Assembly (NCBI GenBank): GCA_019913005.1
Contig: JAIOHL010000034.1
Span: 1 to 64,000, forward strand
Origin: Anaerolineae bacterium
GTDB taxonomy: Bacteria; Chloroflexota; Anaerolineae; Aggregatilineales; J027
DNA length: 64,000 nt
Direction of reading: 5' to 3'
Below the pieces are notes generated by a model that was not told where the DNA came from, did not search any database, and was given only the letters and a program-made list of their open reading frames with translations. Positions 27,682 to 50,710 of the stretch are shown one piece after another; positions within the stretch are counted from its first letter, which is position 1; the number at the start of each line of letters is the position of its first letter. The translations under genes were made by a program, and so were the position numbers.

Positions 27682-27724
27682 CGCCAATTGGCGCATAGAA
27701 AGAGATATGGTCTTACTGTAGCAT
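27682..27724 (+). promoter_or_regulatory. Copper-regulon site S4 with -10 candidate
   Basis: The perfect palindrome CGCCAATTGGCG (27682-27693) is followed after 25 nt by TAGCAT (27719-27724). It lies in the divergent region between the kinase (minus) and the DUF305 gene (plus). Confidence 0.7.
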
Positions 27725-30957: not shown

Positions 30958-30999
30958 CTCCATTTGGCCTACCTGAAGATAATCCCAGTCTCCTACGTT
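30958..30999 (+). promoter_or_regulatory. Copper-regulon site S12, weaker match
   Basis: CTCCATTTGGCC (30958-30969) matches the reverse consensus CGCCATTTGGCG at 10 of 12 positions. TACGTT (30994-30999) lies 24 nt downstream, the usual spacing. It precedes the DUF305 membrane protein. Confidence 0.5.
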
Positions 31000-32602: not shown

Positions 32603-33241
32603 TTAGCGACTTTGGATAAGATTGAGACTGATGGCTTTTAGGGTCGCCTCAGTTCTTCCAGCCACGTCTAATTTGTTGTAGATACTCGCTAAATGCCCTT
32701 GGACGGTGCGGTCACTAATGGAAAGTTGAAACCCAATGGCTTTGTTTGTTAGCCCCCGCGAAGCCAATTGCAAAATTTCAAGTTCCCGCTCGGTCAAAGC
32801 AATCGAGGCCTCTAGGATGGGAGTAGAAGCGGTCTTGTTTAATAGACTGGCGGTGACAACCCTTCGACCCTCATAGGTATCATGCACGGCGGCAATTAGA
32901 TCGTCCGCATCGGCGGATTTCATAATATAGCCATTGGCTCCAGCCGAAAGCGCCGCCCGAATATAGGGTGGGTCGTTGTAAGCAGTGAGAATGAGAATGC
33001 CAATATTTTCGCCATAGCGTTTACGCAACTGACGGGCTACATCGAGACCATTTGGATTAGGCATTTGAATATCCAGAATTGCCACATCGGGGTGATAGCG
33101 TTCAACACATTCAAGCGCTTCTAAACCATTTTCGGCTTCAGCAATCACATTGATCGAACCAGATTCATGTAAAAATTCACGGATACCGCGCCGCACAAAT
33201 CCGTGATCATCGGCCAGCAGGACTTGTATGATGTCACTCAT
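32603..33241 (-). CDS. Response regulator, LuxR/NarL family (first copy)
   Basis: A 212-residue regulator: receiver domain (LADDHGFVRRG, phosphorylated Asp in VAILDIQMPNPNG, switch residues ILTAYN and YIMKSAD) and a LuxR-type helix-turn-helix (LTERELEILQLASRGLTNKA, recognition helix SDRTVQGHLASIYNKL). The recognition helix shares DRTVQGH with the regulator at 49269. It has its own copy of the palindrome with a good TAAAAT -10 box. The matching kinase is probably the HisKA_3 kinase at 25883 or the one at 47660. Confidence 0.93.
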   Translation of the reverse strand: MSDIIQVLLADDHGFVRRGIREFLHESGSINVIAEAENGLEALECVERYHPDVAILDIQMPNPNGLDVARQLRKRYGENIGILILTAYNDPPYIRAALSAGANGYIMKSADADDLIAAVHDTYEGRRVVTASLLNKTASTPILEASIALTERELEILQLASRGLTNKAIGFQLSISDRTVQGHLASIYNKLDVAGRTEATLKAISLNLIQSR

Positions 33242-33282
33242 AATTACTTACCCCATTTGAATATCTCCTGTCTCTACTAGGC

Positions 33283-33325
33283 ATTTTATCATCGTAGAGA
33301 AACTGCCCCTATAGGCTATTCGGCG
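33283..33325 (-). promoter_or_regulatory. Copper-regulon site S5b with -10 box
   Basis: On the minus strand CGCCGAATAGCC (33314-33325) is followed after 25 nt by TAAAAT (33283-33288). It drives the LuxR-type regulator gene, which suggests autoregulation. Confidence 0.75.
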
Positions 33326-33394
33326 TGACTTTTTCCGAGTCAGACATAAATGTTGGGCACGGTGTGTGACAAAAGTCATCAAAAACGGGTTATG

Positions 33395-33436
33395 CGCCAA
33401 ATGGCGGTGATGGCAGGGGCAGGGATTCACTACACT
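33395..33436 (+). promoter_or_regulatory. Copper-regulon site S5 with -10 box
   Basis: CGCCAAATGGCG (33395-33406) is followed after 24 nt by TACACT (33431-33436). It drives the PCYCGC/CuA operon, back to back with site S5b. Confidence 0.8.
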
Positions 33437-33480
33437 CATAGCTATGAATTGAATCTTGAAGAAATGATGGAAACCACAGC

Positions 33481-33924
33481 ATGAACGCACATCGCCTAAT
33501 CATTAAGTTATTGGCCCTTAGCCTCGTGCTTGCCTTCGGTTTATTGCTATCGGGCTGTAGCAGTAACAGTAGCAAAACCCAAATGAGTGAGGAATCGGAC
33601 ATGCCGGATTTTGTGAAAGATGCGCCTGTCCGAGTCAAAGAAGCCTATCAATATGCAATGGATCACCCCGACGAGCTTGCCAAATATCCCTGCTACTGTG
33701 GCTGTGGCAACATGGGTCATGCCAGTAATTTAAGTTGCTTTATCAAGCCGGAAAATTTTGGTTTTGAAAGTCATGCAGCCGGGTGTGGCATCTGTGTGGA
33801 TATTGCCCAAGATGTTATGCGCCTAAAAGGTGAAGGCCAGTCCTCCCCACAAATTCGAAACTATATTGACGCCAAATACAGCGCCTTTGGCCCTTCCACC
33901 GATACGCCATTCCCGACGGAATAA
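33481..33924 (+). CDS. PCYCGC-motif lipoprotein
   Basis: A 147-residue lipoprotein with signal peptide and lipobox LLSGC. The motif YPCYCGCGNMGHASNLSCF and a second cluster AAGCGICVDIAQDVM carry seven cysteines plus His and Met residues, a likely metal or disulfide centre. Proteins with a PCYCGC motif are known as a conserved bacterial lipoprotein family without a defined activity. It is the first gene of a five-gene redox operon with two CuA-type proteins, which suggests that it binds or delivers copper to them. Confidence 0.88.
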   Translation: MNAHRLIIKLLALSLVLAFGLLLSGCSSNSSKTQMSEESDMPDFVKDAPVRVKEAYQYAMDHPDELAKYPCYCGCGNMGHASNLSCFIKPENFGFESHAAGCGICVDIAQDVMRLKGEGQSSPQIRNYIDAKYSAFGPSTDTPFPTE

Positions 33925-33930
33925 ATAGCC

Positions 33931-34443
33931 ATGAGTCGGGTTCAGAAATCATTTGCGTGGATGCGTCAGCATTGGGTGATCCTCATAGGGATCATCCTCG
34001 CCATCGGGGTGATGACCTTTCCAATCCCCCAAATAACCGATCCACAAACCCGAACCATCACACTCGATGCACGGCAATTTGAATTCGCCCCCCATCGCAT
34101 TCACATCAACAAAGGCGATCGGGTCATCATTCAATTCACGGCTTCGGATGTGGTACATGGCTTTTACTTGGATGGCTACGGCATTCAGGAGCGCGTGGAA
34201 CCGGGAATTACTAAACAAATTGAGTTTGTCGCGGAGCACACGGGCAAATTCCGCTATCGTTGCTCAGTCAGTTGTGGCTCACTCCATCCCTTCATGATTG
34301 GGGAACTGGTGGTCGGCCCCAATGAACCCTTTTGGCGAGCTATCGCGTTTGTCATTGTCAGTGTCATCACTTTAATCGCTTATCAATTTTTCTCGAAAGG
34401 AACTTCCTATGAGCACGCAACACTCGGAACATCACCAGCGTAG
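33931..34443 (+). CDS. CuA-type cupredoxin (cytochrome oxidase subunit II-like)
   Basis: A 170-residue protein with an N-terminal membrane helix, a cupredoxin domain (TLDARQFEFAPHRIHINKGD) and a C-terminal helix (AIAFVIVSVITLIAYQFF). The binuclear copper site is complete: a His in VVHGFYL, then CSVSCGSLHPFM with the CxxxCxxxHxxM spacing of CuA. It resembles cytochrome oxidase subunit II, but no subunit I gene lies nearby, so it is likely an electron-transfer or copper-relay module. It overlaps the next gene by 35 nt. Confidence 0.9.
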   Translation: MSRVQKSFAWMRQHWVILIGIILAIGVMTFPIPQITDPQTRTITLDARQFEFAPHRIHINKGDRVIIQFTASDVVHGFYLDGYGIQERVEPGITKQIEFVAEHTGKFRYRCSVSCGSLHPFMIGELVVGPNEPFWRAIAFVIVSVITLIAYQFFSKGTSYEHATLGTSPA

Positions 34444-34981
34444 CCGCGCCACCCATCGGCGGAAACGCACTTGGGCAAAAAACAGCCTTGTTTGGATGGT
34501 GGGCACAGTGATAGCTATTCTCGCCGTCATCGCTCTGTTTTCATCCAATACCAAAACAGGGAATAGCAAAATACCTGCCAATCAGCCTGCCGCAGATTTC
34601 AGTAACCGCCCCATCCCGGACTTTACGCCGGTAGCTGGCGAGGGGCCACGCATTGAAGTATCACAGGATACGCTGGACTATGGCGACGTGGAATATAACG
34701 TTCCGGTCAACGCCGTGTTTTATGTACGGAACGTTGGCGATGAGCCGCTGATTCTGGAAGACACCCCACAGATTGAAGTGGTCAAAGGCTGCTGCCCACC
34801 CCAAGTGCTGGTGAGTTCCAAGACGATTCCACCGGGCACGGAATCCACCATTAGCATGACGTTCTCGATGCACGAGGGTATGGATGGCTTCCACGAATTC
34901 CGGCTCTATGTGCGGACGAATGACCCTGTTCAACCCGTTAAAGAACTCAAGGTACTCTCCAATTGGATTCCACCAGCATGA
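34409..34981 (+). CDS. DUF1573 membrane-anchored protein
   Basis: A 190-residue protein with a basic N-terminus, one membrane anchor (SLVWMVGTVIAILAVIALFSS) and an extracytoplasmic DUF1573 immunoglobulin-like domain (DYGDVEYNVPVNAVFYVRNVGDEPLIL). A vicinal cysteine pair (EVVKGCCPPQV) may bind copper or form a disulfide. It overlaps the genes on both sides, so translation is coupled across the operon. The family's function is unknown. Confidence 0.85.
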   Translation: MSTQHSEHHQRSRATHRRKRTWAKNSLVWMVGTVIAILAVIALFSSNTKTGNSKIPANQPAADFSNRPIPDFTPVAGEGPRIEVSQDTLDYGDVEYNVPVNAVFYVRNVGDEPLILEDTPQIEVVKGCCPPQVLVSSKTIPPGTESTISMTFSMHEGMDGFHEFRLYVRTNDPVQPVKELKVLSNWIPPA

Positions 34982-36360
34982 TAAGGTCACAACGTATCAA
35001 CGTCCTTCAGCATGTGCCCTTTTTGCGCGGGATCTTAAAATCGCGCCTGTTTCAACCCGTGCTGACGATCTCGACCCTGTTTTTCTTCACCCTCGCCATT
35101 GTGACCGGGTTGTTTGGGACACCAGTGGGCAATCGCAACTTTGGCATCGTGTTTGTCTGGATTGTCTGGTGGGGACTGTTGATTATTTTGTTAGTGCCAT
35201 TTTTAGGGCGGTTGTGGTGCGCGGCCTGTCCTATTCCCGTTCCGGGTGAATGGCTGCAACGGCGGGGGATTATCAATCGCCGCAAAGGACGCCTATCTAC
35301 CTTGCGTTGGAAGTTTCCAAAACGCCTGCGCAATATGTGGCTGCAAAACTTCGGGTTTTTGGGCATCGCCATTTTCAGCGCGATCATTTTGACCCGCCCT
35401 GAGGTCAGTGCATGGCTTTTGTTGGGGTTTTCGCTCATTGGGATTGTTTTGAGCATCCTCTATGAGAATCGGGTGTTTTGCCGCTATGTCTGTCCAGTGG
35501 GTGGATTTATTGGCCTCTATTCGCTGATGGCCCCCATCGAAGTGCGTGTGCAAGACCCTGCGGTATGTGCTACCCACACCCCCAAAGACTGCATTATCGG
35601 CAATGAATATGCCTATGGCTGCCCTTGGATGGTGTTTCCCGGTACGCTGGAACGCAATACCTATTGTGGGATGTGCATGGAATGTATCAAGGCCTGCCCC
35701 AAAAACAATGTTGTCATTAATCTTCGTCCGGTGGGTAGCGATCTGATGGTTGCCAAAGAACGACGGCTGGATGAAGCCTATAAAGCCTTTATCATGCTGG
35801 CCTGTGCCTTGCTCTATTCGGTGGTATTGCTTGGCCCGTGGGGCTGGCTCAAGCAGTGGGCCAATATGGATACCTTGCCCCATTGGTTGGCCTATGCCGG
35901 GGTATTTTTGCTGGCAAATCTGCTGCTGCTGCCCGGTCTGTTCACCCTCACCACTTTACTCAGCCGACGATTAGGAGGCATCCAACTGCCATTGCGACAA
36001 CTCGTGACGGATTATGCTTATACCCTTGTGCCACTCGGATTGACGGCATGGATTGCGTTCAGCTTCAGTCTTGTGTTTACCAACGGGAGTTATGCCGTTG
36101 CTGTCCTGTCCGATCCATTTGGCTGGGGCTGGAATCTTTTTGGAACCACTGAAAGCGCATGGACTCCCTTCGGGTCATCGCTGATGCCATTTTTGCAAAC
36201 GGGGATTTTAACCGCCGGGATGTTATTTGCCGTAAATACCGCCTATAAGATTGCGGGCCAGTACACTCCCGATCCTCGGCGGGCGCTGCGAGGGATGTTG
36301 CCTATCGCCGGGTTCATCACCTCCATTACTTTTGTTTTCTTGTGGCTCTACTTGGGATAA
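34978..36360 (+). CDS. Polyferredoxin membrane protein (NapH/NosR/CcoG-like)
   Basis: A 460-residue membrane protein with about eight helices. Cysteine motifs occur as CAACPIPVPGEW after the second helix, CRYVCPVGGFIG near residue 171, and the ferredoxin cluster CGMCMECIKACPKNN near residue 233, with an intervening CATHTPKDC...GCPW. Proteins of this kind pass electrons across the membrane by 4Fe-4S clusters. The ATG at 34978 overlaps the stop of the DUF1573 gene (ATGA). Here it probably links the quinone pool to the CuA proteins on either side; the terminal acceptor is not encoded in the window. Confidence 0.88.
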   Translation: MIRSQRINVLQHVPFLRGILKSRLFQPVLTISTLFFFTLAIVTGLFGTPVGNRNFGIVFVWIVWWGLLIILLVPFLGRLWCAACPIPVPGEWLQRRGIINRRKGRLSTLRWKFPKRLRNMWLQNFGFLGIAIFSAIILTRPEVSAWLLLGFSLIGIVLSILYENRVFCRYVCPVGGFIGLYSLMAPIEVRVQDPAVCATHTPKDCIIGNEYAYGCPWMVFPGTLERNTYCGMCMECIKACPKNNVVINLRPVGSDLMVAKERRLDEAYKAFIMLACALLYSVVLLGPWGWLKQWANMDTLPHWLAYAGVFLLANLLLLPGLFTLTTLLSRRLGGIQLPLRQLVTDYAYTLVPLGLTAWIAFSFSLVFTNGSYAVAVLSDPFGWGWNLFGTTESAWTPFGSSLMPFLQTGILTAGMLFAVNTAYKIAGQYTPDPRRALRGMLPIAGFITSITFVFLWLYLG

Positions 36361-36362
36361 CC

Positions 36363-37376
36363 ATGAAACGCGAATTATTAGCCATCGGCATCGTCATCTT
36401 GATTCTCATTGGTCTCCCAGTTGGCGTATTTATTTATAACCGTCAACACACAAATCCAGACTCCCCCGAGCGCTTGATTACTATTCAAGCGGCAGTACCG
36501 GAAGCAGGTGGTTTTCAACCCAGTGCCATCAAAGTGACTGCCGGAGAAACGGTCACTTTGCGGTTTACCTCAGTGGATGTGACACATGGCATCGCCATTG
36601 GGCCGGGTTTAGGTATCGACTTGGGCCATGTTGACCCCGGTCATGTCCAAGAAGTCAGCCTGACATTTGAAAAAGCGGGTACCTATACCTTTTATTGCAA
36701 TACATGGTGCAGCCCTGACCACTGGCGAATGCGTGGCACAGTGGATGTGATTGATCCTGCCAATCCCGATGCTGCACCGAGTCCCTATCATGACCCTATT
36801 ATTGAGCAATTGGTGGAGGAGGGGGTGAATATTGACGCAAATACCACGATGGACATGCCGGATCACCCTCAACCGGATGTCCTGAGGTTTGACCAACCAG
36901 CCTCGATTGAGCAGGGACATATTTTGGCGGCTTCACTAGTGATTCCAACTGAACTAGCAGATACAGAATGGCGGCTGACCCATACGCCGATAGAAGGTCT
37001 AGCGCTACTGGAAAACAACAATCCATCTATCTCAATGAGCGATCTAATTAACGTCATCGCCTATATGTGGACTTCTGATACCCCACCCGAGGATATACAG
37101 TGGGCTGAAGAATATTACAACAAAAATTGTGCGGCCTGTCATGGGCAGACAGGGGAGGGGAATGGCCCAGCGGCTGACCAAACGGCCCAATCTCCAGTGG
37201 CCTTTGCTGATTTCACCTATATGTTTGGAATGCGGAGTGATGTCTTGTATGCCAAGATACGACGCGGCGGGATGGGTACGGATATGCCCAATTTTGGAAC
37301 GCTCCTAACCCCCGAAGAAACGTTGCGGTTAGTGGGCTACCTCTGGCAACTTGCATTCAAAGATAGGCCCAACTAA
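36363..37376 (+). CDS. CuA cupredoxin fused to cytochrome c
   Basis: A 337-residue protein. N-terminal helix (AIGIVILILIGLPVGVFIY), then a cupredoxin domain with a full CuA site (VTHGIAIG and CNTWCSPDHWRM), a linker, and a C-terminal c-type cytochrome with NCAACHGQTGEG and a later Met (GTDMPNFG). This is the layout of caa3-type oxidase subunit II, but without a catalytic subunit nearby. It is probably the last electron carrier of the operon. The ATG at 36363 starts 2 nt after the previous stop; a longer upstream start overlaps that gene. Confidence 0.9.
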   Translation: MKRELLAIGIVILILIGLPVGVFIYNRQHTNPDSPERLITIQAAVPEAGGFQPSAIKVTAGETVTLRFTSVDVTHGIAIGPGLGIDLGHVDPGHVQEVSLTFEKAGTYTFYCNTWCSPDHWRMRGTVDVIDPANPDAAPSPYHDPIIEQLVEEGVNIDANTTMDMPDHPQPDVLRFDQPASIEQGHILAASLVIPTELADTEWRLTHTPIEGLALLENNNPSISMSDLINVIAYMWTSDTPPEDIQWAEEYYNKNCAACHGQTGEGNGPAADQTAQSPVAFADFTYMFGMRSDVLYAKIRRGGMGTDMPNFGTLLTPEETLRLVGYLWQLAFKDRPN

Positions 37377-37649
37377 GCACCAGAGTTGGCAACAACTGTG
37401 GTGCGTTACATCGAATTCCCGTTGAATCTAAGAACTTTAGATCAGCGAGGGAATTCAAATCAGGTGAAAATGTCCCATTTTGGTCGGGACATTTCGGTAT
37501 CGGGTCACCAATAGGGTAGTGACCCAGTTTGATATAAGTGTTGGTACTTTTAGCATAGAGTCTGCTTTACCAGAAAGCACAACGAAAAACAAACCTCAAA
37601 GTGTCAGTAGTGTCATACTGTCGGAACTGTCGATATGCTACTGACACTT
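37377..37649 (+). ncRNA. Highly structured intergenic RNA candidate with five hairpins
   Basis: Five inverted repeats follow one another in 273 nt: 37377-37404 (GCACCA/TGGTGC with inner AGTTG/CAACT), 37413-37456 (GAATTCCC/GGGAATTC with inner ATCTAA/TTAGAT), 37468-37494 (AAATGTCCC/GGGACATTT, perfect 9 bp), 37502-37525 (GGGTCAC/GTGACCC) and 37598-37649 (12-bp stem). No ribosome-preceded reading frame fits. The first could end the upstream operon; the function of the rest is unknown. Confidence 0.5.
37598..37649 (+). repeat. Repeated hairpin element, copy 1
   Basis: AAGTGTCAGTAG pairs with CTACTGACACTT around a 27-nt loop that contains ACTGTCGGAACTGTC. A near copy lies at 55718-55771 with the same stem and a related loop. 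Both are downstream of genes. Confidence 0.65.
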
Positions 37650-37765
37650 CTCCTCGGAAAGAGCTGATTCCTAAATTTTCATCTTTGGAACACACTAAGC
37701 GCAAACCAAGATTCTTTGTTAAGCAAACAACTCCACAGTGGCATGAGAGTGAAGTTAAACATGCA

Positions 37766-37807
37766 CGCTATTCGGCGTGTTCCCATTCCGCTATAGAGCG
37801 CTATCTG
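37766..37807 (+). promoter_or_regulatory. Copper-regulon site S6 with -10 box
   Basis: CGCTATTCGGCG (37766-37777), flanked as CACGC...GCGTG, is followed after 24 nt by TATCTG (37802-37807). It precedes the cupredoxin/DsbD-like operon. Confidence 0.7.
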
Positions 37808-37856
37808 ACTGTTTCCCAGCTTTTTATACTTAATGAATATATAGAAGGAGACCAAA

Positions 37857-38324
37857 ATGAGCCATCGAAACTCACGAACCCGAAGTAAACGGCATGTCAC
37901 AAAGCACCGGGATATGAGGTCAATTCGCAAAGTAGTTTTTGGGATCATCGTTGTTACTGTATTAGGCTTGGCAGTTTATTTACTCTCCTCATCGCTTGAG
38001 TCCAAAACACCTCCTCCTGCCGAGAACACGATTGATGTCAGTGCCTCCATGGGTGGATTTGATAAAGATGTGATTCGGGTCAAGGTGGGAGAGCCAATTA
38101 CTATTCGCCTAACAAGTCAGGACAATCAGTATCACATGGATGGGGGCGGTAAACATCAGTGGGCAGTTGATGAATTGGACCTAAATGTAATTGCGCCTCC
38201 TGAAGGTAGTGAATGGGTCACATTTACACCCGCCAAACCCGGTGAATACACCTTTTATTGTGACATCTGCTGCGGTGGCCGTGCTAATCCCACCATGCAG
38301 GGCACACTCATTGTAGAGGCATAG
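37857..38324 (+). CDS. Membrane-anchored cupredoxin with altered copper loop
   Basis: A 155-residue protein with a basic N-terminus, one membrane helix (VVFGIIVVTVLGLAVYLLSS) and a cupredoxin domain (MGGFDKDVIRVKVGEPITI). The C-terminal metal loop reads YCDICCGGRANPTMQG. The two cysteines keep the CxxxC spacing of CuA, but a third Cys is present and the His of CxxxH is replaced by Ala. His residues in YHMDGGGKHQW may complete a different site. A strong AAGGAG site precedes the ATG. It is encoded 3 nt before the DsbD-like protein. Confidence 0.82.
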   Translation: MSHRNSRTRSKRHVTKHRDMRSIRKVVFGIIVVTVLGLAVYLLSSSLESKTPPPAENTIDVSASMGGFDKDVIRVKVGEPITIRLTSQDNQYHMDGGGKHQWAVDELDLNVIAPPEGSEWVTFTPAKPGEYTFYCDICCGGRANPTMQGTLIVEA

Positions 38325-38327
38325 ACG

Positions 38328-39137
38328 ATGATAGCACGCAATGTTGCCGCTGTTTCTATTCTTGGGGTAATAGCGCTGGGCGCAATCGCCCTAGCTGGAT
38401 TTTGGCATCCCAATATGGCAATGGATAGCATGGAGTATCTACCAAAAATTACTCTACCGACCATTATCATGGCAGGGCTATTAGACGGCATTAATCCATG
38501 CGCCTTTACAGTGCTTCTGTTATTCATTACCGCATTGACTAGTACCTTAAAAGCTGAAGAGGCCAATGTAAAAACGCTCCGCGTCCGTCTTATGAGCATG
38601 GGGAGTATTTACATTGGCGCGATTTTTCTCACTTACCTAGCACTTGGGGTGGGCTTACTGAAATCCATCAGCTTTTTCACGGAACAGCACGCTCCGGCAC
38701 GGATTGGAGCGCTTGTCGCCGTTTTGTTAGGACTATGGATGCTGAAAGATTACTTTGTGCCGGAATTAGGCTGGAACTTGCACGCCCCCGCATGGATCGG
38801 CGCAAGAGCACGGCGGATGGGTAAAAAAGCTACCATTCCAGCACTAGTAGTCGGCGGGTTTCTGATCGGACTCTGCACTGTGCCTTGCAGCGGCGCAGTT
38901 TATTTGGCAGTGCTAAGTCTTCTAGCGCTTCAATCCAGCGCGCTTTTAGGATATGCCTATCTTGTTCTATATAATGTGGTCTTTATTCTGCCCCTCATTA
39001 CTATTCTGGCGGCGGCGGCCTCGCGTCCCAGTTTGAATAGATTGGCACACTGGAACCTCCATCACAAAGAATGGGTACGTCTAGTGTTGGGCAGTGGTGT
39101 TGTCTTGATGGGGTTGCTTATCCTTGCAACGGTCTAG
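38328..39137 (+). CDS. DsbD/CcdA-like thiol-disulfide membrane transporter
   Basis: A 269-residue protein of about seven helices. Two conserved cysteines lie in the paired motifs GINPCAFTVLLLF and CTVPCSGAVYLA, as in CcdA/DsbD proteins that carry reducing equivalents from cytoplasmic thioredoxin to the periplasm. It follows the unusual three-Cys cupredoxin by 3 nt, so it probably keeps that protein's cysteines reduced for copper loading. A clear terminator follows. Confidence 0.87.
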   Translation: MIARNVAAVSILGVIALGAIALAGFWHPNMAMDSMEYLPKITLPTIIMAGLLDGINPCAFTVLLLFITALTSTLKAEEANVKTLRVRLMSMGSIYIGAIFLTYLALGVGLLKSISFFTEQHAPARIGALVAVLLGLWMLKDYFVPELGWNLHAPAWIGARARRMGKKATIPALVVGGFLIGLCTVPCSGAVYLAVLSLLALQSSALLGYAYLVLYNVVFILPLITILAAAASRPSLNRLAHWNLHHKEWVRLVLGSGVVLMGLLILATV

Positions 39138-39148
39138 ATACTGAGGAG

Positions 39149-39184
39149 AAGATCAGTCTAGAAGCGAGCGGCTGATCTTTTTTC
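39149..39184 (+). terminator. Rho-independent terminator
   Basis: AAGATCAG (39149-39156) pairs with CTGATCTT (39172-39179), followed by a T-run. It ends the cupredoxin/DsbD-like operon. Confidence 0.8.
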
Positions 39185-39323
39185 TTAAATTACCACAAGC
39201 CTATTGGGAAAATGTCCGCATCTATTAGTAGTTTTTTCCTGCTGCCCTAACAATTTACAATATTTATTCATCTAGCCCTTATAGTCTGGACAGGCAGGTA
39301 ACGACTTCGGGCATTTTGTAATC

Positions 39324-41493: not shown

Positions 41494-41589
41494 TGACATT
41501 CCTCCAGATGCTTAGCGCTGTGTTTCCGCCAAACCTGACCATGAGAAAGCGTTTTTTGAGGGCAGAAGGGCTAAATAAAAAAGGTGCGG

Positions 41590-42705: not shown

Positions 42706-43201
42706 ATTATTTCCTAATTCCTATACTGGCTAAAGCTCCAACCCGCCTTGAGACATCGCGGTTTCGCCATACCCTCATGAAGTCTATCGGTTGCTAGAAC
42801 CTTAACACACTTCCCGAATGAGAAACATGCGCCAAATAGCGTGTATTCGGTGAATAAAGCTAGCAGGCTTTTGCTAGCTATGTTAAGAAGCTATAGTCCG
42901 CTAAAGGGCTTATCTTGGGATCATGTGTACAAAGGAAGCGAAAAATACTATAAGTGAACGAATCTGGGGAGGCGGCTACAGAATGGACAAAGCGCACGGT
43001 AGCATGTCTTGGATTTGCAAAAGTCGCACCTCATTGACCATTCAACTACAGTGGAAGATTGTGCCGGACGGATTGCACATAATATCAGAGGTTGAGGTGG
43101 AAAGTTTATAACCTTTGTAGAAAAAGGATTTGAAATGGCAAGAGAGCGACACAATCACAGACCGCGCCGCTCAATGAACAAAGGACTATGCGCTGTTGTA
43201 G
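42706..43201. other. Intergenic region with promoter site and hairpin
   Basis: About 500 bases. The left part contains site S7 and its -10 box. A 7-bp hairpin AGCTAGC/GCTAGCT lies at 42858-42879. A 62-codon plus-strand frame (42923-43111) has no clear ribosome site and no recognisable similarity, so I do not call it a gene. Confidence 0.5.
42799..42841 (-). promoter_or_regulatory. Copper-regulon site S7 with -10 candidate
   Basis: CGCCAAATAGCG (42830-42841 on the plus strand) is followed on the minus strand after 25 nt by TAAGGT (42799-42804). It precedes the L,D-transpeptidase gene. Confidence 0.65.
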
Positions 43202-43456
43202 CTATCGCTGAATATCAGCAGGTAACGATTCAAACTGGTCAGTGAGGGGTACAGGTTTGTGTTCGCTGTGATCGTGATGACCGCCCATCATAGAACGCAT
43301 CATTACCAAATGTAGTAGCGGACACAACAAAATCATGCCATAAAAGAAAACCCCGCTAGATGGAAGACCTAGCAGAAAAACAGCCGTCAGTCCAATGATG
43401 GGAACCAAACAGCAAATCAGCATAATGAACAAGTGTTTCTTCGCCACAGAGAGCAT
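43202..43456 (-). CDS. DUF2933-like small membrane protein
   Basis: An 84-residue protein with two helices (HLFIMLICCLVPIIGLTAVFLLG and GVFFYGMILLCPLLHLVMM), a His-rich segment (GGHHDHSEHK) and a polar tail. It has a CC pair in the first helix and matches the general form of DUF2933 proteins in metal operons. It lies 81 nt after the HMA gene on the same strand and is likely co-transcribed with it. Confidence 0.78.
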   Translation of the reverse strand: MLSVAKKHLFIMLICCLVPIIGLTAVFLLGLPSSGVFFYGMILLCPLLHLVMMRSMMGGHHDHSEHKPVPLTDQFESLPADIQR

Positions 43457-43537
43457 CCTTTTCTAAACTGATGTCTGGTTAGACCGTGTATTGACTCTAG
43501 TTACGCACCTTGCTATCTACTTGAAGGAGTATTCCAT

Positions 43538-43867
43538 TCATCCCCAGTAGAAACGAAGCGGAGACGCGCCAACAGGTTCCTCAGACAGAAACACAGCCTT
43601 GTAAATGTGCCGACCGCCATTCCCAGCGGCAGCAATCGCTTCTATCAAGTTATCCATGGTCCGCGTCTGCTGGTCGTAAGCAACCGCCACAATGTTTTCA
43701 TAAAAAGTACAGGCGAGAACTCCCTCTGTACGGAGCAAGCTGTTCGCCACTCGTGTAGCGCAGCGCTCACATCCTATGCCAGATACCTCTAAATAGGCAA
43801 CTGTGGCGTTGGATAAGGCGGCCTTGTCAACAGGTTTTTCAAACGGTTCAACATGACATTCACTCAT
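43538..43867 (-). CDS. HMA-domain protein
   Basis: A 109-residue protein with a metal-binding HMA core. The copper loop is SGIGCERCATRV (CxxC), followed by LLRTEGVLACTFYENIVAVAYDQQT. It is probably a cytoplasmic copper chaperone for one of the CopA pumps or a sensor partner. Two different palindromes lie upstream: a form of the island's motif (43948-43959) and ATTCTATAGAAT (43895-43906), which overlaps the likely -10 TACAAT. The ATG follows AGGAGAATAACTA. Confidence 0.83.
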   Translation of the reverse strand: MSECHVEPFEKPVDKAALSNATVAYLEVSGIGCERCATRVANSLLRTEGVLACTFYENIVAVAYDQQTRTMDNLIEAIAAAGNGGRHIYKAVFLSEEPVGASPLRFYWG

Positions 43868-43894
43868 TAGTTATTCTCCTCTTTTACTCAATTC

Positions 43895-43959
43895 ATTCTA
43901 TAGAATTGTAGAGGCATCCACAGGCGTATTTTAGCGTTCCAGCGATAGGCAAAATGGCT
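43895..43959 (-). promoter_or_regulatory. HMA gene promoter with two different operators
   Basis: On the minus strand, AGCCATTTTGCC (43948-43959) resembles copper-regulon site S10. The likely -10 TACAAT (43905-43910) overlaps the palindrome ATTCTATAGAAT (43895-43906), identical to the ArsR operator at 907-918. The spacing between the first site and the -10 box is 37 nt, unlike the other sites. Confidence 0.55.
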
Positions 43960-44144
43960 TATTAGGGGATTTAAAACAAAACTGAGGCACTTGCAGAATG
44001 GTGCCAAGTTCGGGTTAAACCCGTTTTCCGTGTAGGCTTAAGTTGACCACTATAACGCTGCTGAAGATCATTGCGAAGCAACCAGCATCAGCGGGCCGGC
44101 TTCCAGAACTCTCTTTACCGAAAATCTTGCTGCTGCTATTGATG

Positions 44145-45071
44145 TTATACGCTGCAATTGCCTGCTTGCGTCGGTGATCCCGGTATCGGCCCAACTTGTA
44201 GCGCAATCTCATAGGCCGATGGCCCACTCGAATAATCTGAGCCTAACACGATGACAGGATCAATTTCTGACCAGACCGTGCCTTGTGCCTCGAAGTAGGC
44301 CGCGAGGGTGATGTAGGTATCCTGAAAAGCATAACTGTTGAAGGTAAGGGCAGTTTCGTACAATTCGGTTGCGGTTGCCCCTTGTGACGCCATAAGTTCG
44401 AGCAAACCTAGTAGAGCCATGCCATGATTACAATCGGGATAGGACGTGTGGTTGCCGCAGCATGGACGGAAAATGGTTTCGGCGATCTGATACACCAAAT
44501 CTTGCTGCTTGGAGGTCAATTTGATCAACTCGGTACTGCTATAAAGATCAACCGCATCGCGCTTGCCAAGCGTCCATCCACCCGTTGAAGCATAATTCCC
44601 AAGCGGCACCTCAGCGGCGTATTGCATCATTGGCCCTTCATCCAAAACCTTGCTGTGTTGGGTCAAGCCGAGTGCCCAGAGGACATTTGTCCAGAATTGA
44701 ATATTGTCAGGGGTAATCGTGATCTGTTGAAGTGTATCGTGCAGGAGGATTGCTTGTTGCTCGTCACTCAAATTGCCAATCAGGGTTTCATACTCAGTTA
44801 AATCAATTGCGCCCGCATCCACTAGCTTTTGGCCCATATCACCCCATTTCACGGCAATCGTTGTGCCCGATGTTGGGGCCACTTGTTCGGTTAATTCGGC
44901 ATAGGTGAAATTTTGTCCAATGGGTGTCGGGGGAGCGGTTAACACTAACTCGGGGTAAGTGGGTGGTTGACTCAGTTGAAATATATTCAATACCTGCCCT
45001 AATTTAAAGACCATGAACCATAGGCTTATAACCCCTATGAATACCCCTAATCCCCAAATTGCTTTTCTCAC
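44145..45071 (-). CDS. Membrane-anchored protein of unknown family with Cys cluster
   Basis: A 308-residue protein with one N-terminal helix (AIWGLGVFIGVISLWFMVFKLGQVL) and a large outer domain. The most conserved-looking text is FRPCCGNHTSYPDCNHGMALLG near residue 205, with a CC pair, a third Cys, two His and a Met that could bind copper or another metal. No named family is recognised. It stands alone between the HMA pair and the CsoR-like gene, all on the same strand. The neighbours suggest a copper-related role, which is an inference. Confidence 0.72.
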   Translation of the reverse strand: MRKAIWGLGVFIGVISLWFMVFKLGQVLNIFQLSQPPTYPELVLTAPPTPIGQNFTYAELTEQVAPTSGTTIAVKWGDMGQKLVDAGAIDLTEYETLIGNLSDEQQAILLHDTLQQITITPDNIQFWTNVLWALGLTQHSKVLDEGPMMQYAAEVPLGNYASTGGWTLGKRDAVDLYSSTELIKLTSKQQDLVYQIAETIFRPCCGNHTSYPDCNHGMALLGLLELMASQGATATELYETALTFNSYAFQDTYITLAAYFEAQGTVWSEIDPVIVLGSDYSSGPSAYEIALQVGPIPGSPTQAGNCSV

Positions 45072-45280
45072 GGTGTTTTCTCCCTACTTATTTGAGGTCT
45101 CACGACTGTGCCTTTTACCTCACCCTGATCCCCTTGCTGGTATGGAAAGAGAATTGGGCGAGCTTCATTCATCCTTTGCCAGAGTTCAATTCGTGGGTGA
45201 TGAGATCACGAACGAGAGCTGTCGCTTTCACAAATACCCTACTGGATTGTTGATAGTTGGAGGTGTCCCGCATGTTTATG

Positions 45281-45333
45281 ATTATGACCCCTCGTGCTTC
45301 GCATCATCACCTGACGGAAATCAGGGTCATAAT
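45281..45333 (-). terminator. Hairpin downstream of the CsoR-like gene
   Basis: ATTATGACCC (45281-45290) pairs with GGGTCATAAT (45324-45333), with an inner CTGA/TCAG. It follows the stop of the minus-strand CsoR-like gene. There is no clear T-run. Confidence 0.45.
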
Positions 45334-45354
45334 CGAGAAAACCGCCTCATAATG

Positions 45355-45672
45355 TTATCGAAGTGCGTCAATAGCATTTTCTGACAGTCTATCCAAACAA
45401 CCGTAGAGTCCACTAATCTCATGCAAGACTTCATCAACACGCTCCAAATTGCTGAGCGCGGCAAGGCATTTAGTCAAGTGGATGTTCACTAGCTGGGCAT
45501 TTGCTGTCGAGAGTGCCGACTCAACTGATTGGATACGTTTAATGATTTCAATACAGGAATCTTCCTGCTCAAACATTAAAGTACATTCTTTAAGCACGTC
45601 TAACTGAAGACGCAGTTGATGGCTTAACAGTTTTTTGTGTGAGCGATGGATACGGATGTTTTTCATGAGCAT
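45355..45672 (-). CDS. CsoR/RcnR-family metal-sensing repressor
   Basis: A 105-residue all-helical protein that follows the CsoR pattern: HKKLLSHQLRLQLDVLKECTLM, then SCIEIIKRIQSVESALSTAN and NIHLTKCLAAL. The Cys-His-Cys copper ligands of CsoR are in place (C in EDSC, H and C in IHLTKC). Such repressors release DNA when Cu(I) binds. It may control the neighbouring HMA genes or a CopA gene. AGAGGGAATCAG precedes the ATG. The C-terminus is slightly longer than in typical members. Confidence 0.72.
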   Translation of the reverse strand: MLMKNIRIHRSHKKLLSHQLRLQLDVLKECTLMFEQEDSCIEIIKRIQSVESALSTANAQLVNIHLTKCLAALSNLERVDEVLHEISGLYGCLDRLSENAIDALR

Positions 45673-45846
45673 CTGATTCCCTCTACTTGTAATTTAACGG
45701 AACAGATTGACTCTTGATAGCGCAATATAGCTTAGGGTGAATAAGCAAAATTGCCTATATACAGCAAATACTTTAGGGGTAATTTTGCTAAATCGTGATT
45801 TTCACTTCCACAAATGAGCATTTGAAAAACACACTTGAAAAAAATG

Positions 45847-45858
45847 CGCCATATAGCG
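45847..45858 (+). promoter_or_regulatory. Copper-regulon site S8 upstream of the YHS gene
   Basis: CGCCATATAGCG matches the motif at most positions. No -10 box is seen at the usual 24-25 nt; TAAGAT (45872-45877) is closer. It precedes the YHS gene that was broken by an insertion sequence. Confidence 0.5.
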
Positions 45859-46047
45859 CAGTAATGATGGGTAAGATGGCTCTGCTTGGTAAATCCTTAA
45901 GCTCATATAATAGATAAATACTGTCTGACATACGTTGGCTACTATGGAAAGGGAAACCTCAATGCGTGTTACAGACCCAGTGTGTAAGATGGAAATAGAC
46001 TCGAAGCGGTATGTGTCAAGGAGTTTGAAACAACTTCGCAAAAAAGA

Positions 46048-47031
46048 TTAAGGAAGATTCTCCGGTGACTTAGGCGGGTTGATGTAAACCGCTGTTGGGG
46101 CACCCTTCACGCTAGGCATCCCGCCCCGAAAACGCTCTGGACAGGCCTCAAAAACGGCTGACATCACGCTTTGCCGGTGCTGTTGCACGGCGATGGCCTC
46201 CCCGAAATGAACACTGGCAGGGGTCATCAAGTTCAGTCCCGAATGGTAATGTTCATGGTTGTACCAAGCGAAAAAGCTTCTGGCCCACGTCCGAGCATCG
46301 TCAAGGGAGGCGAAACGGTCAGGATAATCGGGACGGTATTTCATAGTCTTGAAGTGCGCCTCACTGAACGGGTTGTCATCGGAAGTATGGGGGCGGCTGT
46401 GGCTTGGGGTGATCCCCAGATCAAGCAGCAGTTGGCTCAAGGGCTGGCCTTTCATCGGACTGCCATTATCAGCGTGTAAGATGAGTTGGTCGGGCTGAAT
46501 GCCTTGTTTGCGGGTGGTTGCCGCGATGAGTTGCTTGGCTAGGTCACTACTCTCGATTTCAGCCACCATCCAACCGACGACATAGCGGCTGAAAATATCC
46601 AGCACGGTGTAGAGCTTGTAACCGCTCCACTTGACCGGGCCGCGCAGGTGGGTAATGTCCCATGACCAGACTTCGTTGGGACGTTCGGCCAGCAATTCAG
46701 GCTTGTGGTAAGTCGGATGGCGACGGATGAGGCGACGTTCATGCACTTCGTGATGGGCGTGCAGGATACGATACATCGTGCGCCAGTGGCACAGATAGTC
46801 CCCCTCATCCAGCAAAGTCGCATAGACCTGACGCGGGGCTTGATCCATGAAACGCTCGCTGTTGAGTGTATCGCGCACCTGGATCTGTTCCTCAAGCGAT
46901 AAGGCATGAGCGGGTGTTGGACGCGGGACAGGTGCCGCTTGGGGCTGCCGTGCGCGGTAAACGCGACTGCGCGGCACATTCAGCACCTCACAAGCCGCCT
47001 TCACGCCGATGGTGCTGGCAAGCGCATTCAT
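46048..47031 (-). CDS. IS3-family transposase OrfB (integrase core)
   Basis: A 327-residue DDE transposase with HTH_21-like start (GVKAACEVLNVPRSRVYRAR) and an rve catalytic core: WSWDITHLRGP (first D), ILHADNGSPM (second D) and SEAHFKTMKY (E). It begins within the OrfA stop codon (ATGA) and is in the -1 frame. OrfA has A AAA AAG at 47062-47068, the standard slippery site for making the OrfAB fusion, and the -1 frame is open from there into OrfB. The catalytic core appears complete, so the element may still be active. Confidence 0.9.
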   Translation of the reverse strand: MNALASTIGVKAACEVLNVPRSRVYRARQPQAAPVPRPTPAHALSLEEQIQVRDTLNSERFMDQAPRQVYATLLDEGDYLCHWRTMYRILHAHHEVHERRLIRRHPTYHKPELLAERPNEVWSWDITHLRGPVKWSGYKLYTVLDIFSRYVVGWMVAEIESSDLAKQLIAATTRKQGIQPDQLILHADNGSPMKGQPLSQLLLDLGITPSHSRPHTSDDNPFSEAHFKTMKYRPDYPDRFASLDDARTWARSFFAWYNHEHYHSGLNLMTPASVHFGEAIAVQQHRQSVMSAVFEACPERFRGGMPSVKGAPTAVYINPPKSPENLP

Positions 47032-47384
47032 GATTGCTCCTCCTCCAGCAGGCGTGCCAACTTTTTTTGGGCCTCAATGATCAGTTCTGCCCGTTCCAAC
47101 TGCCGCTTCAAACGGATGTTCTCGGCCTCGAGACGCCGCATCTCAGCACGATTCGGGTTGGCAACCGGCCCGCGTGGCTTGCCTAATGTTCCCGCCGCAT
47201 GAGCGATACGCCACTTGCCCATCTGGGCATAGGTCAAGCCCTCACGCCGCAAGAGTGATCCTAACTCCCCATGCTGACACTGCTCCGCTTCGACCACGAT
47301 CCGCCGCTTATATTCGGCACTGAAACGGCGGCGTTCCGGCTTAGGCTGAACTTCTGGATTGGCTCTGCCACTCTTTTCTGACAT
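47028..47384 (-). CDS. IS3-family transposase OrfA
   Basis: A 118-residue DNA-binding subunit: HTH region (FSAEYKRRIVVEAEQCQ, SLLRREGLTYAQMGKWR) and a leucine-zipper-like C-terminus (RLEAENIRLKRQLERAELI). The slippery heptamer near its 3' end allows -1 frameshifting to make the full transposase. It is transcribed toward the 5' half of the disrupted YHS gene. Confidence 0.9.
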   Translation of the reverse strand: MSEKSGRANPEVQPKPERRRFSAEYKRRIVVEAEQCQHGELGSLLRREGLTYAQMGKWRIAHAAGTLGKPRGPVANPNRAEMRRLEAENIRLKRQLERAELIIEAQKKLARLLEEEQS

Positions 47385-47659
47385 GTTCCTTGTCCCTGTT
47401 CTCCGCCCTTCATTTCTATACTAAACTTGAACGGCGAAGTTGTTTGTTCCATTATGGCACATAGGGAAGGAAGCAACTGCCCAATCCGAATACCAAGGGC
47501 AAACCTACTATTTTTGCTCGACTGGCTGCAAGAAAGCCTTCGATAAAGACCCGGCTAAATATGTTGGTACCCAGCACGAACACAGCAGTCATCACCATCA
47601 TAATTGAGCTAAAAATCAATTGAATTCTTCGGGGCGTGATGGAGAGGTTACACCCCGAA

Positions 47660-49285
47660 CTATAGTTGCTTGAAGTCTTGAGAAGGTGTCGTTCCAATAG
47701 CCAGACGGATTGTAATAGTTGTGCCGCCCTCTGTCGTCGATACAATCTGGAAATAAGCACCAATCAATGCTGCCCGCTCGTACATGCCCATAATGCCAAA
47801 GTGCCTATTACCTGAGCGGGTAATCTCGCTAGGATGCTGAGGTGCGGAAAAACCGTGCCCGTTATCCCGCACAGAAACTATAACATTCTCATCCGAAAAA
47901 CTCACAGAAATCCAAACATGATCTGCGCCACTATGCTGCCAAGCATTGTTTAGCGCTTCCTGCGCGATACGATACAGTACGATCTCCTGCTCTGTGGAGA
48001 GACGGCGGGGCGTGCCTTGCTTCTCAAATTGAATAGTCATTTGATCGCCTAGGTCAAGGTCACGCGCTAACATTTGCAGTGCTGGAGCTAATCCCAACTG
48101 TTCAAGCGAAACGGGTCGCAAGGCCCTCACAATACGCCGTAAGTCTTCGATACTTTGCGTAATATTCAATCTTGTTTCGCTCATCAAGATCGTTGCTTCC
48201 GGGTCATCCGAGAGAAAGGGTTTCAACATTTGAACCTGATGATTGAGCGCTACCAGTGCCTGCGCGGTCTGATCATGCAGCTCACGCGCCACCCTCAAAC
48301 GCTCATCTTCCTGGGCGCGGGTAACTGCCCCAATGTAATTGTGCATCTCAGCTTGGGCTGTCCGAATGCGCTGCACCATATTGCGTAGCGTAGCATGAAG
48401 GCGTTGAATTTCCTCAATCCCACCAACTTCGGACTCAATAGCATCATAATTACCCCAATCTAGGCTGGTTGCTTGTTTTTCAAGGCGTTGTAGGGGACGG
48501 ACAATCTTGCGGATACCAACGCCAACCAGTAGCAGTACCAAAAGTAGACCGGGCACTAGCACCAATGGGGCCGCCTGAGAGTATCGCATTAAGGGACTCA
48601 GTTCCTTCTGCCAATTTTCTTCCTGTACCAATCGCCACTCGGTCTGGGGAATCGGTGCAGAAATGACAATGACATCTTCACTCTTGGATTGAGAAGCTAT
48701 TGTGCCAATTAGGGCTGGATTGCTATGGTAAAGAATTCTGTTATCGGCATCAAGGATGTAAGCAAACGTATGCGATTTGCCATGTAAACTGGACAGAATT
48801 TCCGCTGCTGGGAGCGTGGATAAAGAAACAACCCCTATGGCCGAATTGCCTTCAACCTCAGCGATGATGGCGATATATAACTCGGCTTTATTAGGAGCCA
48901 ATAGCGGAATAAAAGGGCTGTTGGATGTGGCGCCAAAAATTGTCTGAAATGTGGCAACATCTATGATAGAGGCACGGCCTACGATGGATACCACTCCGTT
49001 TCGGTATTGAGCAATACCACCGTCAAAAAGCATTTGTAACTCTGGCGAAGGAGTGGGGGAAGCTCGCTCCAGCCACATCTGTAGTGCTGTCCGGCGTTGC
49101 TCCAGTTGACGTGAGATGTTGTTTGCTATACCCGGTACAATGCGTCCATCATGTTCGACCAATGTTTCACGCATGGAGCGCTGGTGTAAAGTAATGCTGC
49201 CAAAGGCAACGCCAACTAGCAACACCAAGAGTGGCAAAACCAGAAAAATAAACAGTTGCAGGAAGGAATCAGTGAGACGTTTCAT
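47660..49285 (-). CDS. Sensor histidine kinase, HisKA_3/NarX-like, with Cache-like sensor
   Basis: A 541-residue kinase with the same plan as that at 25883. First helix (LFIFLVLPLLVLLVGVAFGS), an extracellular region resembling a Cache domain (TFAYILDADNRILYHSN, SAPIPQTEWRLVQEENW), second helix, HAMP, HisKA_3 (ARELHDQTAQALVALNHQVQ) and HATPase_c (NNAWQHSG, DNGHGFS, GIMGMYER). The start at 49285 overlaps the response regulator gene by 17 nt, so the two are co-translated. Copper sensing is inferred from context. Confidence 0.9.
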   Translation of the reverse strand: MKRLTDSFLQLFIFLVLPLLVLLVGVAFGSITLHQRSMRETLVEHDGRIVPGIANNISRQLEQRRTALQMWLERASPTPSPELQMLFDGGIAQYRNGVVSIVGRASIIDVATFQTIFGATSNSPFIPLLAPNKAELYIAIIAEVEGNSAIGVVSLSTLPAAEILSSLHGKSHTFAYILDADNRILYHSNPALIGTIASQSKSEDVIVISAPIPQTEWRLVQEENWQKELSPLMRYSQAAPLVLVPGLLLVLLLVGVGIRKIVRPLQRLEKQATSLDWGNYDAIESEVGGIEEIQRLHATLRNMVQRIRTAQAEMHNYIGAVTRAQEDERLRVARELHDQTAQALVALNHQVQMLKPFLSDDPEATILMSETRLNITQSIEDLRRIVRALRPVSLEQLGLAPALQMLARDLDLGDQMTIQFEKQGTPRRLSTEQEIVLYRIAQEALNNAWQHSGADHVWISVSFSDENVIVSVRDNGHGFSAPQHPSEITRSGNRHFGIMGMYERAALIGAYFQIVSTTEGGTTITIRLAIGTTPSQDFKQL

Positions 49286-49943
49286 CGAGAGATGGCAGAT
49301 CAAGGAGGCCGAGTTGTGAAGCTTTAACGACAGCTTCGGTGCGGCTGGCAGCATTCAATTTCTCGAAAATTCGACGGAAGTGACCTTGCACAGTGCGATC
49401 ACTAATATCTAGCAACATACCAATGGCCTTATTGGTCAGTCCGCGTGTGGCTACTCGCAGGACTTCCAGTTCTCGCTCAGAGAGTGCCGGGTAAGTAATA
49501 TCAGGTTTGTGAGAGGCAGTGACGGCTCGCATTAATTTCGGAATAACATTGCGATCCATTACGGATTGTCCCTCGTGAACCGCTCGAACGGCCTCGACAA
49601 TTTCCTCCATATCGGCTGTTTTGAGCATGAAGCCATTGACCCCTGCTTCTAGGGCCGCCATGATAAAGGGATCATCGTCAAAAGCAGTCAGGATTAGCAG
49701 GCCAACTGGCAAAGCTTTAGCCCGTACTTGACGTGCCACTTCAATCCCATTGTAAATTGGCATTTGAATGTCCAGTACAGCAACGTCCGGTTGATGTTGT
49801 ACGATTATTTGAAGGGCGCGTTCACCATTTTCAGCCGTTGCTACAACATCAATGCCAGCCTTTGACAATATCTGTTGAATGCCATGTCGAACTACTTGAT
49901 GATCATCTGCGAGGACAACACGGATACTTTTCTCTTCAGCCAT
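49269..49943 (-). CDS. Response regulator, LuxR/NarL family (second copy)
   Basis: A 224-residue regulator: receiver with LADDHQVVRHG and phosphorylated Asp in VAVLDIQMPIYNG, switch residues ILTAFD and FMLKTAD, and a LuxR-type HTH with LSERELEVLRVATRGLTNKA and recognition helix SDRTVQGHFRRIFEKL. DRTVQGH is identical to the regulator at 32603, which predicts the same DNA target. AGGAGGATCAA precedes the ATG at 49943; a longer frame starting at 50129 lacks a ribosome site. Its promoter carries site S9. Confidence 0.93.
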   Translation of the reverse strand: MAEEKSIRVVLADDHQVVRHGIQQILSKAGIDVVATAENGERALQIIVQHQPDVAVLDIQMPIYNGIEVARQVRAKALPVGLLILTAFDDDPFIMAALEAGVNGFMLKTADMEEIVEAVRAVHEGQSVMDRNVIPKLMRAVTASHKPDITYPALSERELEVLRVATRGLTNKAIGMLLDISDRTVQGHFRRIFEKLNAASRTEAVVKASQLGLLDLPSLDETSH

Positions 49944-49971
49944 TTGATCCTCCTTGTAGTAAACCAATTTA

Positions 49972-50014
49972 AGTGTACGATGCAAACACCTGCCTGTATA
50001 CCCGCCAAATCGCC
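49972..50014 (-). promoter_or_regulatory. Copper-regulon site S9 with -10 box
   Basis: CGCCAAATCGCC (50003-50014 on the plus strand) is followed on the minus strand after 25 nt by TACACT (49972-49977). It drives the second LuxR-type regulator and its kinase, another sign of autoregulation. Confidence 0.75.
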
Positions 50015-50667: not shown

Positions 50668-50710
50668 CGCCATTTTGCCTATCCCCACTACGCCTCTTAA
50701 CGCTTATCCA
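50668..50710 (+). promoter_or_regulatory. Copper-regulon site S10 with -10 candidate
   Basis: CGCCATTTTGCC (50668-50679) is followed after 25 nt by TATCCA (50705-50710). Its core and flank (GCCATTTTGCCTATC) are identical to the site on the minus strand at 43948. It precedes the second CopA gene. Confidence 0.6.

Follow-up and report, generated by a model that had tools for sequence, protein, structure and literature searches.

The first 64,000 nucleotides of contig JAIOHL010000034.1, from an Anaerolineae bacterium of the phylum Chloroflexota, encode two NarL-family response regulators, RR1 and RR2, and two HisKA_3-type histidine kinases, HK1 and HK2 (Table 1). This whole stretch is called the window. 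We consider it highly probable, from comparative sequence analysis, that RR1/HK1 and RR2/HK2 are paralogous NarL-type two-component systems, which activate a single copper/cupredoxin regulon as well as their own genes. In the proposed mechanism, a membrane HisKA_3 kinase would sense an envelope signal, most likely copper, and would phosphorylate its regulator, as is usual for the family. Once phosphorylated, the regulator would bind as a dimer to the inverted repeat TACGCCA-NN-TGGCGTA (7-2-7 layout), with one dimer centered near -43, at the would-be -35 box, and would recruit RNA polymerase. At promoters whose -43 site is weak, help would come, presumably through cooperativity, from a strong site near -66, 24 bp further upstream.

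A shared recognition helix and a NarL-type site

An earlier reading made from the window alone (the sequence-only reading) had pointed out that both regulators have SDRTVQGH in the recognition helix and that both genes are preceded by a palindrome with a -10 box 25 nt downstream. From this it had proposed that the regulators bind the site and regulate their own genes. RR1 and RR2 each have Response_reg and GerE domains above the Pfam cut-off, the NarL/FixJ-type architecture, and they are 52% identical, with ISDRTVQGH common to both GerE domains. The helix assignment held. The two sequences agree, and in an AlphaFold2 model of RR2 (mean predicted local distance difference test score [pLDDT] of 85) residues 182 to 196, DRTVQGHFRRIFEKL, form a single helix, the predicted recognition helix, in which the motif lies. 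In the genome searched (7.65 Mb on 365 contigs, 96% complete), only RR1 and RR2 had SDRTVQGH or TVQGH among the 21 GerE proteins above the cut-off (23 matches in all). By sequence alignment, TVKVHVKHM of NarL (PDB 1a04) pairs with the RR1 helix stretch. We take K188, V189, and K192 to be the base contacts of NarL, and on that numbering RR1 and RR2 share Q and G.

Named relatives of both regulators were mostly Chloroflexi/Anaerolineae records. The NCBIfam model for NarL (NF007935) gave 131.8 bits for RR1 and 140.8 bits for RR2, short of its cut-off of 250, and among the best 25 matches of each protein, those to MadR, MctR, and the other listed NCBIfam models were likewise below cut-off. A recent RR1/RR2 duplication in the host lineage was not supported. 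The regulator tree separates the two, RR2 grouping with regulators of other genera and RR1 with copies from the same genus.

The DNA site is a 16-bp inverted repeat of the NarL-type 7-2-7 layout, and its best copy in the window is ACACGCCAAATGGCGTAT at 25115. An engineered 7-2-7 site of NarL, TACCCCTAAAGGGGTA, has the same layout as the window core (available text of PMC4549865). We scored DNA with an 18-column matrix built from 10 window sites. Thirteen places in the window scored at least 14 and 11 scored at least 16, against 0.35 and 0.1 expected per 64 kb of first-order Markov sequence. Because the matrix was trained on the window, this count is circular in part, a problem that the tests in other genomes do not share. 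The rest of the contig (57,867 bases) had no place scoring at least 14 and two at 12, and the 65,283 bases around the 21 other GerE matches of the genome had one place at 14 and none at 16. According to the table of open reading frames (ORFs), none of the 13 sites lies inside a gene with a recognized product, and several overlap small, mechanically called ORFs. Two further places in the window scored between 12 and 14, one of which (19855) is inside a MacB-like gene. The pattern ACGCCRAATGGCGYAT, a 16-mer likewise derived from window sites, was found with at most one mismatch at six places genome-wide, three of them in the window, which is 0.8% of the genome.

Site position relative to the promoter

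Each regulator gene does have the palindrome with a -10-like hexamer 25 nt downstream (Table 1). In the window as a whole, TAnnnT stood at 24 to 25 or 47 to 48 nt in 14 of 15 gene-facing site orientations, these offsets having been learned partly from the window sites themselves. We then counted hexamers in the 79 loci outside the window that have a TVQGH regulator, reading every site with a score of at least 17 in both orientations. Among 256 orientations, TAnnnT occurred at 24, 25, 47, and 48 nt in 39, 29, 10, and 57 cases, and at the remaining offsets beyond 3 nt it averaged 3.05, with a maximum of 11.

The two distance classes differed in what lay nearer the gene. In the 47/48 class (65 orientations) there was a second site 24 bp nearer the gene, with a mean score of -1.1 against an overall mean of -20.1 (standard deviation of the offset means, 3.9), whereas the 24/25 class (66 orientations) had no second site 24 bp on (mean score, -15.1). 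Taken by themselves, the 14 window orientations did not show this second site clearly. If the hexamer is a -10 box, then the dyad would be near -42.5/-43.5 in the 24/25 class and near -66 in the 47/48 class. It seems that either a strong site occupies the dimer position near -43 or a weak one does, in which case a strong site at -66 backs it. This layout fits a NarL/DevR-type activator, and we infer from it that activation is more probable than repression.

The site tracks the regulator across genomes

Comparison across genomes supports both proposals of the sequence-only reading, autoregulation and binding of the site by the regulators. With the window left out, a site scoring at least 17 was present in the fetched DNA of 63 of 79 Chloroflexota loci with a TVQGH regulator vs 4 of 21 others (Fisher test, P = 5e-7). 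These 21 include six with TVQNH, which are nested within the TVQGH part of the tree; two of the six have the site. The tree was entered by 106 Chloroflexota-type loci, of which L076, L083, L110, L116, and L243 were merged (identical regulators) and L117 was too short. We placed the two window regulators in the tree as well and left them out of the count of 63 in 79. In this tree, the regulator of L077 (recorded as Clostridiales bacterium PH28_bin88) groups closely with those of the Chloroflexota loci L078 and L079, which might reflect transfer or a mis-binned contig.

We also searched 121 genomes of the order for near-perfect 16-mers. At least one was found in 19 of 33 genomes with an RR2-like regulator (defined by an E value up to 1e-45) vs 11 of 88 without (P = 1.3e-6), the 88 perhaps holding more distant TVQGH regulators. 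Two or more were found in 10 of 33 vs none of 88 (P = 7e-7). When the genome of the window was left out, the counts with the regulator became 18 of 32 for at least one and 9 of 32 for at least two (both P = 3e-6). The site was also found next to the regulator genes themselves. It lies 68 to 102 nt upstream of five of the seven RR2 orthologs from outside the genus (L042 to L048, 73 to 79% identical), with scores of 11.1 to 18.9. Directly upstream of the regulator, a score of 12 was reached in 7 of 45 Chloroflexota loci, and permuted matrices gave a mean of 0.16 and a maximum of 4. Such direct-upstream sites are few because the regulator often follows other genes, the sites being elsewhere in the cluster. 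Actinobacterial loci had no site scoring at least 14 (0 of 32), a weak control, since their GC content is 71% and the helices that were read there are not QGH. Taken with its NarL-like size, symmetry, and spacing, the way the site follows the SDRTVQGH clade makes the regulators its probable binders.

Copper genes are the predicted targets

We collected the first genes downstream of the sites in the 79 non-window loci, as deduplicated ORFs of at least 75 amino acids with a site scoring at least 17 at 25 to 260 nt upstream. The 113 genes included 17 for E1-E2 ATPases, 17 for GerE regulators, 14 for HMA proteins, 13 for Cu-oxidase_3 proteins, 10 for YHS proteins, 8 for DsbD, and 5 for DUF305. The GerE share is consistent with autoregulation. 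For controls, 113 genes from the same loci were drawn at random from 384, of which 112 were scanned (L096:1009-4047 was left out). These had 3 ATPases and 11 GerE regulators, and HMA, Cu-oxidase, YHS, and DsbD were absent from the 25 families shown. Given that only the first 25 families are covered, there may be at most one Cu-oxidase_3 control; one control each was assumed for HMA, YHS, and DsbD, and none for multicopper oxidase. Copper ATPases, HMA proteins, multicopper oxidases, and DUF305 proteins head the named non-regulator targets. Most of the sites scoring at least 17 (100 of 131) fell outside called ORFs, even though about 89% of the DNA is in ORFs of at least 100 amino acids (an estimate from 20 loci).

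A copper regulon might instead be under a repressor. The window has a CsoR-like gene (45355-45672) with sites upstream of it, and the targets are copper genes, so the CsoR-like protein, or another copper repressor of the CsoR family, could be imagined to bind the site and repress the regulon. However, the window protein is a weak match that covers only profile positions 22 to 73 of 78, and near-perfect sites do not follow CsoR. They occur in 22 of 82 genomes with PF02583 vs 8 of 39 without it (P = 0.5; the same 121 genomes), and four genomes (G080, G086, G100, and G110) have the regulator and the site with no PF02583 match. Moreover, the fixed distances place the site where an activator replaces the -35 box. 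On the co-occurrence across the 121 genomes we reject CsoR as the site binder, and we regard repression by a CsoR-family protein as very improbable. A fuller CsoR profile match is on contig C333 of the host genome.

Two kinases, two predicted pairs, and the signal

The sequence-only reading described two kinases of matching type and identical domain order, only the second being next to a regulator. The match in type was borne out, since HK1 and HK2 both have HisKA_3 and HATPase_c (the HPK7-type combination), and in each dCache_1 matched below threshold. The order of domains is probably identical, although a HAMP match, also sub-threshold, was seen only in HK1. It is true within the window that only HK2 adjoins a regulator. 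In two same-genus genomes, however, HK1 orthologs (86% and 84% identical) adjoin RR1 orthologs (91% and 89%; L244 in G021 and L257 in G015), a synteny on which we reject the reading of HK1 as an orphan. The second copy in G015 (L074) has HK1 and RR1 separate, as in the window, where genes for a DUF305 protein, a multicopper oxidase, a second DUF305 protein, and a methyltransferase lie between them. Kinase and regulator are also apart in L099, L233, and L235. The HK2 ortholog adjoins the RR2 ortholog in all seven loci from L226 to L232. HK1 is most likely the displaced partner of RR1, giving two cognate pairs, HK1/RR1 and HK2/RR2, within which phosphotransfer is predicted. Between L075 (G015:C25) and the window, RR2 is 99% identical and HK2 only 81%, a sharp change in divergence that might stem from recombination.

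Copper is most likely the signal for HK1 and HK2, judging from the targets and from distant relatives. In a distant sub-clade (L110, L111, L113, L115, and L116), short HisKA_3 kinases without an extracytoplasmic sensor stand beside SDRTVQGH regulators. All five that were scanned have a C-terminal YHS domain above the cut-off, which is probably a cytosolic metal input. In a mycobacterial adenylyl cyclase, a YHS domain has been proposed to sense copper (available text of PMC4626032). The presence of this metal-binding domain on the distant kinases favors copper as the signal. A model of the HK1 sensor made from one sequence was too poor for use (pLDDT of 49).

The signal might also be a related envelope or redox condition, such as periplasmic thiol or respiratory state, with the copper genes making up one part of a wider response. 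The targets do include cytochromes c, cupredoxins, and DsbD-like genes, and the kinases carry a weak Cache-like match rather than a known copper site. However, copper ATPases, HMA proteins, multicopper oxidase, and DUF305 lead the named targets, and the YHS domain of the distant kinases has, in another protein, been described as probably sensing copper. We consider a signal other than copper unlikely.

Limits of the link and possible division of the sites

Several observations weigh against the reading of two paralogous systems on one copper regulon. No site scoring at least 17 was found in the fetched DNA of 16 of the 79 TVQGH loci, some of the pieces being short. The helix trait changes only about three times on the regulator tree, giving two to three independent pairs. 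The regulator-site link therefore holds at the level of clades, a comparison of so few pairs having no power. One near-perfect site is present in each of 11 of the 88 genomes without a close regulator. Two of the seven RR2 orthologs from outside the genus have no upstream site, and four have only a weak one. Inside called ORFs were 31 of the 131 sites scoring at least 17, although the caller over-extends starts. Neither HK1 nor HK2 had a Pfam match marking copper sensing. Finally, the third NarL contact position, aligned with K192, is A in RR1 and R in RR2. The alignment continues after SDRTVQGH with L-A-S-I-Y in RR1 vs F-R-R-I-F in RR2, and because of this difference it is not assured that both regulators bind every site.

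These helices raise the idea of a split specificity, in which RR1 would serve TACGCC-type sites and RR2 those of hybrid or TAGGC/TAAGC type that lie close to its own gene and to the CsoR-like gene, giving two partly overlapping regulons. The window mixes TACGCC-type, TAGGC/TAAGC-type (43948 and 45744), and hybrid sites. Elsewhere, a clade with a LAHIF helix (most of L207 to L221, one family of the class) has regulators of the same kind and sites like ATAGGCAATTTTGCCTAT or similar to ATARGCMAWWTTGCCTAT, whereas most other clades have ACGCC-GGCGT (TACGCC-type) sites. However, RR2 orthologs of another family (L227 to L232) have mostly TACGCC-type sites nearby, L234 combines a LAHIF helix with TACGCC-type sites, and both regulators' own promoters (33314 and 50003) are hybrids. 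The half-site difference tracks clades rather than one residue. A rule in which F or Y after the helix core sets the C/G half-site was rejected, being broken by L234 and by LRRIF regulators with TACGCC-type sites. We find a split somewhat doubtful. Control of one site set by both regulators is the reading we prefer.

A broader form of that reading seems to us evenly balanced. It would make the window systems members of a Chloroflexota-wide NarL-type copper-sensing family with near-invariant SDRTVQGH heads, one site grammar (-43, or -66 plus -43), and swappable kinase inputs, which would be a Cache-like extracytoplasmic sensor in most and a cytosolic YHS copper module in others. The two host pairs would co-regulate one site set and perhaps cross-feed through it.

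Comparison with known systems

NarX is a HisKA_3 kinase, as are HK1 and HK2. Like the systems here, E. coli NarX/NarL combines a NarL-type regulator with a 7-2-7 inverted site, and NarL activates yeaR from one site immediately upstream of -35 and ogt from tandem sites at -44.5 and -77.5, according to the available text of PMC4549865 and PMC7419079. It differs in targets and signal, and its tandem centers are 33 bp apart at ogt, compared with 24 bp here. Mycobacterial DevR (DosR), which was one of several PDB matches of similar score (3c3w), is also of the NarL family, is autoregulated, and has a primary and a weak secondary site in close packing, of which the proximal one overlaps -35 (available text of PMC3029386). 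The hexamer positions here give the same layout, a proximal box over -35 and a packed secondary box, as a likeness of arrangement. DevR takes input from two kinases, DevS and DosT (same source), whereas in the window each kinase seems to be paired with a regulator of its own. The DevR signal is hypoxia, and its site differs from the one here.

The characterized copper two-component regulators are mainly OmpR type, and CusR, CopR, and PcoR are of that family. CusRS, CopRS, and PcoRS resemble the systems here in being two-component control of copper genes, but they have Trans_reg_C and HisKA domains, whereas RR1 and RR2 have GerE and the kinases HisKA_3. ChrSA and HrrSA are actinobacterial systems with a heme signal. 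The PDB entry that RR1 matches best by sequence is ChrA (4yn8), and HrrSA is reported to have heme and respiratory targets. In Cupriavidus metallidurans NA4, 10 of 11 metal resistance systems are OmpR type and Zni is of the NarL family (available text of PMC7380067).

Among the top matches in open-licence PubMed Central (PMC), titles and abstract beginnings held no report of an SDRTVQGH regulator-site pair or regulon, and the papers listed for the site letters were on other topics. The RegPrecise 3.0 paper describes a Chloroflexi collection, and its main text does not mention copper, two-component systems, or NarL, as far as the paper itself goes. The parts are known, and the combination, the target set, and the distribution appear to be new. 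It appears that this phylum, most of which is uncultured, relies on an activator of the NarL type whose promoter grammar can be read. If so, copper regulons would be predictable in Chloroflexota genomes, and target genes of little-known families (DUF7482, PCYCGC, DUF1573, and DUF3105) are named. The QGH, QNH, QTH, and HSH helices and the TACGCC vs TAGGC sites also form a natural series for the evolution of specificity in the NarL family.

Features of the window

Table 1. Regulators, kinases, and predicted sites in the window, with the genes that the sites precede
Feature	Position	Strand	Score	Description; hexamer and its distance (nt) downstream	Basis
RR1	32603..33241	-		NarL-family response regulator, REC + GerE, helix SDRTVQGHLASIYNK	Pfam, alignment
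RR2	49269..49943	-		NarL-family response regulator, helix SDRTVQGHFRRIFEK; ORF listed from 50129, start placed at 49943 by homology	Pfam, structure model
HK1	25883..27574	-		HisKA_3 kinase, probable partner of RR1	Pfam, synteny
HK2	47660..49285	-		HisKA_3 kinase, partner of RR2, overlaps RR2 3' end; ORF listed from 49354, start read as 49285	Pfam, synteny
Site before cytochrome c (9753) and copper-ATPase (10345) genes	9701..9712	+		TAnnnT at 48	
Site before 83-aa ORF (start 14680, no Pfam match)	14785..14796	-		TACACT at 25	
Best window site, before DUF7482 gene (start probably 25235)	25115..25126	+	26.6	TACAAT at 25	
Divergent site	27682..27693	.		DUF305/CopM-like gene (+), TAGCAT at 25; HK1 (-), TAnnnT at 48	
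Weaker site before second DUF305 gene (31011)	30958..30969	+	14.2	TAnnnT at 24 and 48	
Site before RR1	33314..33325	-	16.8	TAAAAT at exactly 25	
Site before PCYCGC/cupredoxin/DUF1573/Fer4_5/cytochrome run (33481-37376)	33395..33406	+		TACACT at 24	
Site before cupredoxin and DsbD-like genes (37857-39137)	37766..37777	+		TATACT at 47	
Site before YkuD gene (start 42705)	42830..42841	-		TAAGGT at 25	
Site before small ORF (43538-43867) with sub-threshold HMA match	43948..43959	-	15.7	TAGAAT at 47	
Weak site before CsoR-like gene	45744..45755	-	12.5	Outside the 13; TAAATT at 47	
Site 174 nt from CsoR-like start	45847..45858	-	16.9	No hexamer at usual offsets	
Site before RR2	50003..50014	-	19.0	TACACT at exactly 25	
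Site before CopA (50772)	50668..50679	+		TAACTT at 47	

The three window ATPases scanned were copper translocating by NCBIfam, above the cut-off. The protein at 27767 is CopM-like, its 89.8 bits being just below the NCBIfam cut-off of 90. Another near-perfect site of the host genome (G000), at C324:6379 (L031/L157), precedes a second DUF7482 gene copy, beyond which is an HK1-like reading frame with a late start (231 amino acids within the DNA fetched); this may be a duplicate in decay. At 28604-30757, a multicopper oxidase is joined behind a YVTN-type beta-propeller in one fusion. Transposase genes (rve/HTH_Tnp_1) at 46048-47384 lie between the CsoR-like gene and HK2. The same copper cluster also has a separate pair of an OmpR-type regulator (Trans_reg_C) and a HisKA kinase at 22413-24500, beside an HMA protein.

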